Assembly (NCBI RefSeq): GCF_014279975.1
Contig: NZ_CP047936.1
Span: 620,001 to 684,000, forward strand
DNA length: 64,000 nucleotides
Direction: 5' to 3'
From: Synechococcus sp. BIOS-U3-1
GTDB lineage: Bacteria > Cyanobacteriota > Cyanobacteriia > PCC-6307 > Cyanobiaceae
Shown here: positions 18,550 through 21,726 of the stretch, piece after piece
Position numbering within the stretch: position 1 is the first letter of the stretch
Layout of the letters: each line of letters opens with the position of its first letter
Notes under the pieces: model-generated
Database searches by the model: none
Seen by the model: the letters and a program-made list of their open reading frames with translations, nothing else
Told to the model about the DNA's origin: nothing
Program-made: the position numbers and the translations under genes

Positions 18550-19269
18550 ATGGCCCTGGTGGACTGGCTCTGGATCCTCCACCCGGTTTTGGCGGTGGTG
18601 TTGATCTATCCCCTCACCGGGATCGTGATGCGACTGGCGATGCAGACACGATCTCGGCGATTGAAGACCGCAAAACCGCCTCCGACGGTGGGGCGGGACC
18701 ACAGTGATCTCGGGCGCTGGCTGGCCGTAGGTGTGGTTGTGCTGGTGATCGTTGCGCTCACCGTGGTCATCGCAACATCTGCACCGCTTGATCAGTTTCA
18801 AGGCGGCTTCCGTCGTGCTTGCACGCTGTTCTTGGTGCTGATCGGAACCCTGCTCAGTGTTGGGGCGCTGTGGATTGCGAAGGCGCCTGGTCTTCGGCTG
18901 GCGTTTGCTCTGATCACTTGGGCTGGCGTTCTTGGTTTGGGAGCTCAGCCGGAGGTTTGGCGTCTCTCCGATGACCCTTTCTCGCCAGCGTTCTGGCAAT
19001 CCCATTACTGGTCTGGTGTTGCGGTGGTGGGCCTCATGCTGTTTTCTCTTGGTGCCCGGCCGGAGATTTTGCGTGACCTCCGCCTGCGCCGCCTGCATGT
19101 CACCGCCAATGTGCTCGCCGCGCTGCTATTCGTGCTGCAGGGCATTACCGGCACCCGTGATCTGTTGGAGATTCCCTTGAGTTGGCAGAAGCCGACGATC
19201 TATGCCTGCAATGTCGAAGCCCGCAGCTGCCCGCCGTTGGCCCCGCTTTCTCCGGCTTCTCAGCCTTAG
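18550..19269 (+). CDS. DUF4079-family membrane protein
   Basis: About 239 residues from ATG 18550 (the frame extends upstream to 18436, but that part lacks family character). It starts LVDWLWILHPVLAVVLIYPLTG, a signature I associate with cyanobacterial DUF4079. About seven hydrophobic helices follow; the loop RRACTLFLVLIGTLL and late LRRLHVTANVLAALLFVLQG carry His/Arg that could be cofactor-related in this family, but this is not established. It ends 4 bp into the 3' end of the convergent binding-protein gene. Confidence 0.72.
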   Translation: MALVDWLWILHPVLAVVLIYPLTGIVMRLAMQTRSRRLKTAKPPPTVGRDHSDLGRWLAVGVVVLVIVALTVVIATSAPLDQFQGGFRRACTLFLVLIGTLLSVGALWIAKAPGLRLAFALITWAGVLGLGAQPEVWRLSDDPFSPAFWQSHYWSGVAVVGLMLFSLGARPEILRDLRLRRLHVTANVLAALLFVLQGITGTRDLLEIPLSWQKPTIYACNVEARSCPPLAPLSPASQP

Positions 19270-20516
19270 AGAGGGGTGTTGCTGCCATGCACGCAGTGTT
19301 GCCCGGCTGACTCCGGATGATCTGGATTCCAGGGTTTGGGTTCGATCACCCCGAAATCTTTCACCACTTGGAAGTTGCCAGTGTCATCAGCTTTGCCAAG
19401 CAGGGAGCGCTTGTTGAGGTGCTGGCTAGGGGTGATGGTTAGCAAGCCCTGTGGCGCTGAGTAACTGGTTCCGATCAGTTGCCGACGTACGTCTTTGGGA
19501 TTCGTACTGCCTGCTCGTTCTGCAGCGCGGGCCCAGAGATGGACCAGGCTGTAGCCGGCTTCAGCGGGGTCGTTGATGACGCGGTGATACCCATAGCGAC
19601 GACGAAAGCGCTGCGCGAATGTTCTGGAATGATCTCCAGCCAACGATTGGAAATAGCTCCAGCTGGCATAGGTTCCGGAGATTTTGTTCGTACCGATCGC
19701 CAGGGCCTCTTCCTCCGAAACAGACAGACTCAATACGGTCACACCGGTATCCACCGCTTCTGAGCCAATGATGGCCTCGCGGTAGAGCTGTTCAAAGAAG
19801 GCGAGGTTGCTATCGCCGTTCAGGGTGTTGATGACAACAATCGGACCGCTTGCATTGGCCTGCTGAATGCTTTCAACCAGTGGGTCGACATCTGCACTGC
19901 CGAGTGGGAGGTAGTGCTCATCCAGTACTGTGCCACCCGCCCGTTGTACCTGGGTGCGCATGATGCGATTGGCGGTACGGGGGTAGATGTAGTCCGAGCC
20001 GATCAGCAGGATGCGTTTGCTGCGGTTCGCCAGCATCCAGTTCAAGGCGGGTTCCGATTGTTGATTGGGAACCGAACCGCCATACACCACGAAAGGGGAG
20101 CACTCCTGGCCTTCGTATTGCACCGGATAGAACAGCAGTGCATCACGTTCTTCCAGGGCTGGCAGCATTGCCTTGCGACTGGTCGATGTCCAGCCTCCGA
20201 AGATGGCCACCACCTTTTCGTGATCGAGCAATTGTTCGGTCCGACGAGCGAAGGTGTCCGGATCGGACATGCCGTCCTCCTCGACTGGTTGAATCAAGAC
20301 CCGCTTGCCCTTCAGCATCAGTCCGCCGCCGGCATTGAGTTCCTCGATCGCTAGTCGTTCGGCTTCGGCAACGGTGTTTTCAGACAATGCCATCGTTCCA
20401 CTTCGGGAATGCAGCAGGCCTACGCGCACCACGTTGATGTCGCTTTTTGAAGCGCTTCTGCCGCAACTGCTGAGTAGCAGGGTGGCCAGCAGGCCGATGA
20501 GCACCTTGTGGTTCAT
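19266..20516 (-). CDS. Urea/short-chain amide-type periplasmic binding lipoprotein (UrtA/AmiC-like)
   Basis: 416 residues. Lipoprotein signal with lipobox LSSC (Cys18), so membrane-anchored in the periplasm. Family features of the urea/amide branch of type I binding proteins: VGLLHSRSGTMALSE near residue 33, ELNAGGGLMLKGK, GGWTSTSRKAMLP and LLFYPVQYEGQECS. No urt permease or ATPase gene is nearby. Its ATG overlaps the stop of the upstream pentameric channel gene (ATGA, 20513-20516), so the two are translationally coupled. It most likely senses urea, an amide or a related small molecule for the channel; the ligand is inferred only from the family. Confidence 0.88.
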   Translation of the reverse strand: MNHKVLIGLLATLLLSSCGRSASKSDINVVRVGLLHSRSGTMALSENTVAEAERLAIEELNAGGGLMLKGKRVLIQPVEEDGMSDPDTFARRTEQLLDHEKVVAIFGGWTSTSRKAMLPALEERDALLFYPVQYEGQECSPFVVYGGSVPNQQSEPALNWMLANRSKRILLIGSDYIYPRTANRIMRTQVQRAGGTVLDEHYLPLGSADVDPLVESIQQANASGPIVVINTLNGDSNLAFFEQLYREAIIGSEAVDTGVTVLSLSVSEEEALAIGTNKISGTYASWSYFQSLAGDHSRTFAQRFRRRYGYHRVINDPAEAGYSLVHLWARAAERAGSTNPKDVRRQLIGTSYSAPQGLLTITPSQHLNKRSLLGKADDTGNFQVVKDFGVIEPKPWNPDHPESAGQHCVHGSNTPL

Positions 20517-21652
20517 CGACTTCCCCAGCTGATCAAGGCGGTCAGCACCAAGGCTGAGGCCGAGATGATCTGAAAGCGCATGTCAGCTCGATTGATCTTG
20601 AGCATGGTGTTCAGTTTCTGATCATCTGCAGCGGCTGCGTAGGTGTTGTATCCCCACGTGAACAGACCAAAAAGGGCCATCGCGATCAGATAACTGGCAG
20701 TGAACAGATCGTCGAGGAAGGTGGTGTAAGGCAGTTTCGGCAGCGAGGAGTGATACGACTGCTGGAGAAAGATCAGTGTGAGTAGTGCCGTGGATGGGAC
20801 GGCCAGTCGCACATCGGAGAGTGTTCCCTCAACAGAAGGAGCCATCAACACAATTGAGTTGATGATCATCAGCGGGATGACCCAATTCACGATTCCAGGC
20901 CAGAGATTCGATTGGTAGACCACTTCCAGGCGTACCTGGCTGATGTGCGGCCGATACCAGGTGCCCCGACGGTTGCTTGTGCGTCGCAGATAGGGCGTGA
21001 AGCTGGCACTTTCGAGTTGATAGCCGCTCAGGGAACCCAGCTCCCCAACAAGGTTGTCGTCACTCGGTTCGGGCAGCAAACGCAGGTCGGCGTATTTCTG
21101 CGATGTCCACAGTGGTTTGAGCTCCACGATCACCGGCAGCCGCAACATGTCGAACGGATCTCGGCGGAAGTCGACTTCATCGTCGTAGAAGCGGCTTGAA
21201 AAGTGGTAGTGCTGCTGGCGCCTGCCTCCGGAAAGCTCCCGTGGTCTTTCCGTGGAGGGTTCAAAGGTTGAGTCCCACGTTTCGATGCGGTTGGCGAGTG
21301 TGATCAGCTCGGCAGGATCCTCGCCATGTTTTTGCAGCAGTGCTTCCACTTCGGGCAGCCATTCCAGCCAAAGTTCACCATCGGCGGTGAACGTGCGTGA
21401 GTTCAGATTCAGCTCATAGATCTTGTCGAGATGGATGCCGGCGTAGATGAACGGATGCTTTTGCACCAGAGCTTCCGAGATGCGCACCTCTTGAAGTCCT
21501 GAAGGACCCTCCATCACTTCCGTGATGGAGTCCTGGTCAAGGACCTTGCTTGGACTTTGCCCGACCAGCTGGCGTCCGCCCAGAATCAGAGTGATCGTGA
21601 GCGCCGCCATCAGCAACAACACGATTGGACGTGGACGGGGAAGCCTCCGCAT
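20513..21652 (-). CDS. Pentameric ligand-gated ion channel (prokaryotic Cys-loop/Pro-loop family)
   Basis: 379 residues from ATG 21652. N-terminal membrane/signal segment about residues 10-28. Beta-rich extracellular domain about 55-250 with IHLDKIYELNLNSRTFTADG and LWLEWLPE, then the Pro-loop motif DFRRDPFD (about 161-168), matching the YPFD-type loop of the family. M1 about 251-271 has the conserved IP; M2 about 280-302 (VRLAVPSTALLTLIFLQQ) has a Leu at the usual gate position; then LPKLPYTTFLD and M3; M4 is about 361-377. Aligned by eye with the GLIC pore, an Asp sits just before M2, hinting at cation selectivity. It is coupled by a 4-base overlap to a urea-type binding lipoprotein. Confidence 0.88.
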   Translation of the reverse strand: MRRLPRPRPIVLLLMAALTITLILGGRQLVGQSPSKVLDQDSITEVMEGPSGLQEVRISEALVQKHPFIYAGIHLDKIYELNLNSRTFTADGELWLEWLPEVEALLQKHGEDPAELITLANRIETWDSTFEPSTERPRELSGGRRQQHYHFSSRFYDDEVDFRRDPFDMLRLPVIVELKPLWTSQKYADLRLLPEPSDDNLVGELGSLSGYQLESASFTPYLRRTSNRRGTWYRPHISQVRLEVVYQSNLWPGIVNWVIPLMIINSIVLMAPSVEGTLSDVRLAVPSTALLTLIFLQQSYHSSLPKLPYTTFLDDLFTASYLIAMALFGLFTWGYNTYAAAADDQKLNTMLKINRADMRFQIISASALVLTALISWGSR

Positions 21653-21726
21653 CAACTGTTGTTCAGACCGTCACTGATGTCTTCAGGATGGCTTCGCGCG
21701 TTGAACCTGTCAGTGGCTGGACTGAA

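Follow-up and report, generated by a model that had tools for sequence, protein, structure and literature searches.

Gene Pair in Synechococcus sp. BIOS-U3-1

The locus described here raises the question of why a gene for a pentameric ligand-gated ion channel (pLGIC) overlaps a gene for a lipoprotein that resembles UrtA of the urea transporter UrtABCDE. Both genes lie on the minus strand of a 64,000-nucleotide stretch of the Synechococcus sp. BIOS-U3-1 genome (contig NZ_CP047936.1, positions 620,001 to 684,000), which is called the window. The gene for a Pro-loop pLGIC and that for a UrtA-family lipoprotein, whose urea-type pocket is complete, form a conserved cassette that was found across several lineages, under three different gene arrangements, and that persists in genomes with no detectable urea ATP-binding cassette (ABC) permease or intact urease. 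This cassette probably specifies one split two-protein receptor, in which the lipoprotein would bind urea or a close analogue and gate a cation channel; considerable room for doubt is left by that judgment. The features of the pair are given below in window coordinates.

20513..21652, minus strand: channel (pLGIC) gene, 379 amino acids; start ATG at 21652, in-frame alternative TTG at 21655
20906..21451, minus strand: extracellular (periplasmic) domain of the channel, about residues 69-250, from the ELIC alignment; limits approximate
21149..21172, minus strand: Pro-loop DFRRDPFD, residues 162-169; Pro167 and Phe168 invariant in 26/26 rows
20744..20815, minus strand: pore helix M2, Asp281 (-2') to Ser304, with Leu292 at 9', from the family alignment
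20711..20743, minus strand: M2-M3 loop LPKLPYTTFLD, from the channel translation and profile alignment
20513..20516, minus strand: ATGA overlap of the channel stop (TGA) and the lipoprotein start (ATG), read from the sequence
19266..20516, minus strand: UrtA-family lipoprotein gene, 416 amino acids, from the open reading frame (ORF), PF13433 and PDB matches
20463..20474, minus strand: lipobox LSSC with Cys18, from the lipoprotein translation
19722..20192, minus strand: span with the eight urea-pocket positions W109, S111, Y130, Q133, E135, Y176, N233 and S265 (positions from PMC10392092)

Channel residues are counted from TTG 21655, and the prime numbering of M2 (Asp281 as -2', Leu292 as 9') follows the GLIC/ELIC convention. 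An earlier note, made from the letters of this DNA, had reported that the channel stop overlaps the lipoprotein ATG and had named a set of channel motifs. The overlap was located as ATGA on the minus strand, and the motifs were all recovered: DFRRDPFD, M1 Pro261, Leu292, Asp281, LPKLPYTTFLD and the last helix. Both genes look constrained, since dN/dS (the ratio of nonsynonymous to synonymous substitution rates) is about 0.12-0.18 for channel and lipoprotein alike when compared with three relatives.

Identification of the Channel

The channel was aligned with ELIC by phmmer at 7.5e-8 across residues 73-348. With a 26-row family profile, 180 PDB sequences scored E ≤ 0.001. The best of them is ELIC at 4e-20, and the 60 that were listed are ELIC, GLIC and their chimeras with GABA-A or glycine receptors. 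The homology to the solved pLGICs spans the extracellular and membrane domains in the phmmer and profile searches. Pro167, Phe168, M1 Pro261, M2 9' Leu292 and M2-M3 Pro306 are invariant in the 26-row alignment. By these comparisons the homology is not a matter of chance, and the profile match bears out the pLGIC identity that the earlier note had proposed to check in this way.

Curated models were less sensitive. No family was returned by a Pfam-A scan of the channel at E ≤ 1, PF02931 and PF02932 included, and the sole NCBIfam hit, at 0.06 to a model for ligand-gated ion channels, is far under the cut-off. Four of five other channels scanned were also without a Pfam match. The homology therefore rests on phmmer and the family profile, because the Pfam models miss most of the bacterial group. 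A PF02931 search of the BIOS-U3-1 genome likewise gave no match and carries no weight either way, as the controls were unmatched too.

Asp281 is invariant in a 16-row alignment of the paired clade described below. An acidic residue at M2 -2' favors cation flow, and the pore may thus carry cations.

Three further observations concern the channels. Several channel matches are present in some picocyanobacterial genomes, with up to five in G339 (G and L numbers denote our genomes and loci). Apparent channel fusions, frames of 676-885 amino acids at L059, L060 and L071, were rejected, each being a long open frame that lies upstream of an ordinary channel. Viral carriage was addressed by one channel scan, in which nothing was confirmed.

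Identification of the Lipoprotein

The lipoprotein matches PF13433, the Peripla_BP_5 fold family, at 4.8e-122. Its PDB matches are UrtA at 1.2e-108 and AmiC at 4.2e-51, and by these scores it is a member of the UrtA family. A strict lipobox is found in 26 of 28 paired lipoproteins.

Eight strictly conserved residues are described as important for urea binding in Prochlorococcus UrtA (PMC10392092). The window lipoprotein keeps all eight, as do all 28 aligned paired proteins and 13 rows of transport-type UrtA; the Peripla_BP_6-type partners introduced below do not. AmiC deviates at four of the eight positions. The pocket of the window lipoprotein is of the urea type rather than the amide type, which upholds the urea half of the "urea/amide" assignment made earlier.

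Conservation of the Pair in Cyanobacteria

In a sample of 400 genomes of the family, 122 contain a channel relative. Among 31 genomes of the genus, a close channel (71-100% identity) occurs in ten and a close lipoprotein (66-100%) in the same ten, Synechococcus WH7803 (G246, L073) being one of them. The two genes are contiguous by coordinates in all ten, and a 4-base overlap with an ATG is available in 9/9 Synechococcus loci besides the window. The partner of the WH7803 channel is the only lipoprotein match found in that genome. The earlier note had suggested asking whether the pair is always adjacent in other picocyanobacteria. Adjacency holds in every pair-bearing genome of the genus but not for the freshwater Cyanobium-group channels L041-L043, which have no adjacent UrtA gene; UrtA genes lie elsewhere in those genomes.

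Synechococcus sp. CS-1330 is a special case. Its channel sits in the freshwater branch whose other members lack a UrtA neighbor. The convergent gene beside this channel nests among the Cyanobium transport UrtA proteins (97/97 node), and another UrtA copy adjoins urtB. Most simply, a partner of this kind would have been recruited a second time.

Other gene copies were noted in this material. A broken tandem channel copy lies beside an intact channel-lipoprotein pair at L039:7540-8720 (-). UrtA-family genes without an adjacent urtB or channel are present at L155:3167-4732 (-) in Cyanobium sp. FACHB-13342 (G158) and at L159:2269-3804 (-) in G260, where the urtB-linked copy lies about 4 kb away.

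Conservation of the Pair in Distant Bacteria

A scan of named genomes confirmed 134 loci, of which the best 80 were kept. Among these 80, channels 48-58% identical to that of the window (best segment) appear in records labeled Myxococcota/Deltaproteobacteria, Gammaproteobacteria (Halieaceae and others) and Verrucomicrobia, with metagenome bins throughout. At 18/18 non-cyanobacterial loci with enough flank, the gene immediately upstream, on the same strand, is of the UrtA type and 48-56% identical to that of the window; a 4-base overlap is possible at 7/18. L083, which is cut by a contig end, and L140, a fragment below the length cut, were not assessed. The lipoprotein gene comes first outside the cyanobacteria and the channel gene first in Synechococcus; the two are contiguous either way. 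The pair is therefore not peculiar to marine cyanobacteria, the setting in which it had first been interpreted.

Strong matches were obtained in 6 of 140 genomes of the family of the Luminiphilus bin and in 6 of 282 genomes of the phylum Myxococcota. These comprise 13 loci with a partner at 13/13, of which 12 overlap the best-80 scan and L170 is new. In 13 Myxococcota genomes with weak channel matches only, no partner was present in the examined flanks. The partner is the only lipoprotein match found in three non-cyanobacterial genomes. Although rare, the cassette is tightly linked.

A FastTree phylogeny of 110 distinct channels was used to place the pairing in the wider channel family. In the clade that contains the window, 33 loci could be assessed and 30 of them have a UrtA-type neighbor, so that the pairing passed the neighborhood check set out in the earlier note. 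These 33 rows exclude a broken copy (L039:7758-8720) and the contig-edge locus L083 and include the window and L170. The 30 paired loci consist of 10 Synechococcus loci with the channel first, 19 Myxococcota, gammaproteobacterial or Verrucomicrobia loci with the lipoprotein first, and one convergent locus. The L094 partner was counted as UrtA type on the basis of its pocket and 56% identity, despite a regex label of the other type.

In a second channel clade the partner comes from a different binding-protein subfamily. This pairing holds at 17/19 loci, with the genes head to head in 15 and convergent in 2; the assignment of these partners as Peripla_BP_6 type rests on three that were scanned. 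A binding-protein neighbor of either subfamily was found within 1.5 kb at 0/49 assessable channels of the remaining clades, from which 9 contig-edge rows had been dropped. The neighbor profile was built from both subfamilies, and binding proteins of other classes would escape it.

The loci of the second clade are L035, L039, L052, L061-L063, L065-L067, L069, L070, L137-L139, L141 and L151, and L035 and L039 hold both kinds of pair within a few kilobases. A very distant channel-like ORF (L063:10-1176 (-), profile E of 1e-47) lies about 3.4 kb from a Peripla_BP_6-type pair. A divergent Tll0287-like gene (PF11845, 1.6e-40) is found at L068:4907-5650 (-) beside a channel without a binding-protein neighbor and is perhaps another sensor partner.

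When maximum-likelihood trees were built for 29 channels and for their 29 partners, the main clades proved to be shared, with some long-branch joins unsure. The correlation of channel and partner distances is 0.92 for 28 pairs, 0.947 without CS-1330 and 0.846 for the 18 non-cyanobacterial pairs, and none of 2000 permutations reached so high a value.

A first rival explanation is an accident, by which an orphan urtA came to lie next to the gene for a channel. Orphan urtA genes are described near phage-associated genes in some picocyanobacteria (PMC8786288), and the lack of a neighbor at L041-L043 is also in keeping with chance placement. An accident is hard to reconcile with pairing at 30/33 assessable loci, against 0/49 elsewhere, when the paired loci span several lineages and three arrangements, or with the gene overlaps and the constraint on both genes. 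Because the pairing recurs, we regard an accidental neighborhood as refuted in practice and its residual likelihood as slight in the extreme.

Urea Transport and Urease Genes

The BIOS-U3-1 genome was searched for urtB (TIGR03409) and for the permease superfamily PF02653, and neither was found; each is present in 24/31 genomes of the genus. The earlier observation that no ABC permease lies near the pair thus extends to LivH/UrtB-type permeases (PF02653) anywhere in the genome, ATPases not having been searched for. Urease alpha (ureC) survives there only as a 77-residue remnant with three stops (C1:2652002-2652232, L163). The remnant occupies a gap between ORFs near genes that resemble, by eye, molybdenum-cofactor and nitrate-transport genes.

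Among the ten genomes of the genus that carry the pair, no urtB was detected in five, namely G000 (BIOS-U3-1), G246 (WH7803), G204, G312 and G317, of which G312 and G317 are only 73 and 85% complete. A search for urease alpha gave none in G246, G204 and G317 and two partial pieces in G312; the five pair-bearing genomes with urtB have it at full length. WH7803 is stated to be without urea assimilation genes (PMC4923085). None of the channel-bearing stretches L032-L151 gave a urtB match, in contrast to 11 of 12 stretches with a transport-type UrtA.

With no urtB and no PF02653 permease found and only a ureC remnant in its genome, the window lipoprotein does not serve a urea ABC transporter and does not qualify as a partner of UrtBCDE. 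The nitrogen-nutrient response offered in the earlier note is not supported by these findings, and in the half of the pair-bearing genomes where no urtB was detected urea would be a cue rather than a food. A UrtA annotation should not be read as urea uptake, WH7803 being a case in point. Control by NtcA was also considered and rejected: no GTAN8TAC site is near the pair, and the window holds 2 such sites where 1.49 are expected by chance.

A second rival explanation keeps uptake, with the lipoprotein capturing urea and the channel passing it in place of a lost ABC transporter. It would account for the pair in BIOS-U3-1 and WH7803, where no urtB was detected, and for the urea-type pocket. Urea taken up in this way would meet no intact urease in BIOS-U3-1 and no detected urease in G246, G204 or G317, WH7803 has the stated lack of assimilation genes (PMC4923085), and urtB is retained in five other pair-bearing genomes. 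The pores of pLGICs, moreover, are ion pores. Uptake through the channel is accordingly judged very unlikely.

Proposed Function of the Cassette

The recurrence of the couple in distant bacteria, even where urea is unusable as food, argues for a split chemical sensor and not an uptake system. In the proposed mechanism, the membrane-tethered lipoprotein would bind urea or a close analogue and close around it. The closed form would dock on the periplasmic domain of the pentamer, and docking would open (or shut) a cation pore. The resulting ion flux or voltage change would be the signal, with the ligand acting as a cue and not necessarily as food. Ligand binding by the lipoprotein, its contact with the channel, gating, cation selectivity and an ionic output are all inferred from sequence comparisons. 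No third gene recurs across lineages in 18 loci compared by eye, where close relatives share neighbors and the Synechococcus loci share two; the cassette therefore seems self-sufficient. Swimming marine Synechococcus show chemotaxis to nitrogen compounds, and WH7803 is non-motile, which counts against chemotaxis as the general role.

Several points weigh against such a receptor. Many of the non-cyanobacterial loci come from metagenome bins, so their phylum labels are provisional. Shared descent explains part of the agreement of trees and distances and alone could yield matching trees. The unpaired channels L041-L043 suggest that the channel may work without a partner or with a UrtA encoded elsewhere. 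The channel itself may bind a ligand directly; mapping of the ELIC agonist site onto it reached only ELIC residue 133. The window lipoprotein scores 431.9 bits on TIGR03407, under the curated cut-off of 492.75 bits. For comparison, 442.8 bits were obtained for the L036 partner, 504.5 for a myxococcal partner, 557.5 for the CS-1330 neighbor, and 559-585 for four transport UrtA proteins plus a tandem copy. It is also odd that a urea-type pocket should be retained in genomes unable to use urea, and the ligand may be another molecule.

The last two points lead to a third rival, in which the lipoprotein senses a molecule other than urea (another amide, a carbamate or an unknown small molecule) and the urea pocket is inherited baggage. 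Constraint persists where urea is unusable (dN/dS 0.15-0.16), and both the window and L036 lipoproteins fall under the TIGR03407 cut-off. A change of ligand sits poorly with the presence of eight of eight urea-pocket residues in 28/28 partners, whereas AmiC differs at four, and we consider it quite unlikely.

A fourth rival shares the ligand and differs in the gating step. The lipoprotein would only concentrate or deliver the ligand, which would gate through the channel's own inter-subunit site, as proposed for binding-protein-linked bacterial pLGICs in PMC549065. The conserved urea-type pocket is compatible with this hand-over. Nothing found here favors it above docking, the mapping of the agonist site having gone no further than ELIC residue 133, and we hold it to be unlikely, though the most credible of the alternatives.

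A more specific form of the two-protein receptor is put forward tentatively, at a little less than an even chance. The agonist site of a urea-gated channel would reside on the lipidated UrtA-type protein, closure of which would gate a cation channel, with urea as an environmental cue. Some orphan UrtA proteins would then have the channel as the partner they lack, and gating by a separate binding protein would be a recurring design among bacterial pLGICs, as two channel clades have partners of different subfamilies. To our knowledge, most bacterial pLGICs have no known natural ligand. Because the pocket of the partner matches that of a solved urea binder, a candidate ligand could be tested here at once.

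Comparison with Known Systems

Links between pLGICs and binding proteins were already known in 2004, and the cassette with a UrtA lipoprotein is a new form of them. Tasneem et al. (PMC549065) described bacterial pLGICs fused to a binding-protein domain in Magnetospirillum and Bradyrhizobium, as well as neighborhoods with stand-alone binding-protein (called PBP-II) or Cache genes, the products of which were suggested to sense or pre-concentrate ligands; Synechococcus is named only in the legends. A 2016 inventory includes Synechococcus channels, and the words periplasmic and operon are absent from its text (PMC4795631). A 2021 review mentions orphan urtA genes with unresolved partners (PMC8786288). 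For the loci described here, which may differ from those of the review, a channel is the candidate partner. Our searches of the open-access PMC literature showed no report of a UrtA-channel cassette among the papers listed.

The cassette resembles the systems of PMC549065 in having a binding-protein gene beside the channel, in the window and at the 30/33 loci overall. It differs in that the binding protein of the window is a UrtA-family lipoprotein encoded separately and equipped with all of the urea pocket, in the overlap of the genes and in the recurrence of the pair across lineages.

The lipoprotein is similar to UrtA of UrtABCDE in its identity class (50%), its pocket residues and its lipid anchor. 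Unlike that protein, it adjoins a channel rather than urtB and scores under the TIGR03407 cut-off, and the paired lipoproteins form their own tree branch, CS-1330 excepted. AmiC of the amidase operon belongs to the same binding-protein family (4.2e-51) and differs at four of the eight pocket positions. AmiC is a sensor and not a transport protein, and we know of no channel partner for it.

DeCLIC is a bacterial pLGIC that carries an additional periplasmic domain at its N terminus and is modulated through it; that domain is fused and responds to calcium, whereas the binding lipoprotein here is a separate protein. The window channel is homologous to ELIC and GLIC across its membrane helices and periplasmic domain, and it shares with them the Pro-loop, the M1 Pro, the M2 9' Leu and the M2-M3 motif. 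It is only a distant relative of these channels, is missed by Pfam and, unlike them, is encoded beside a dedicated binding lipoprotein.

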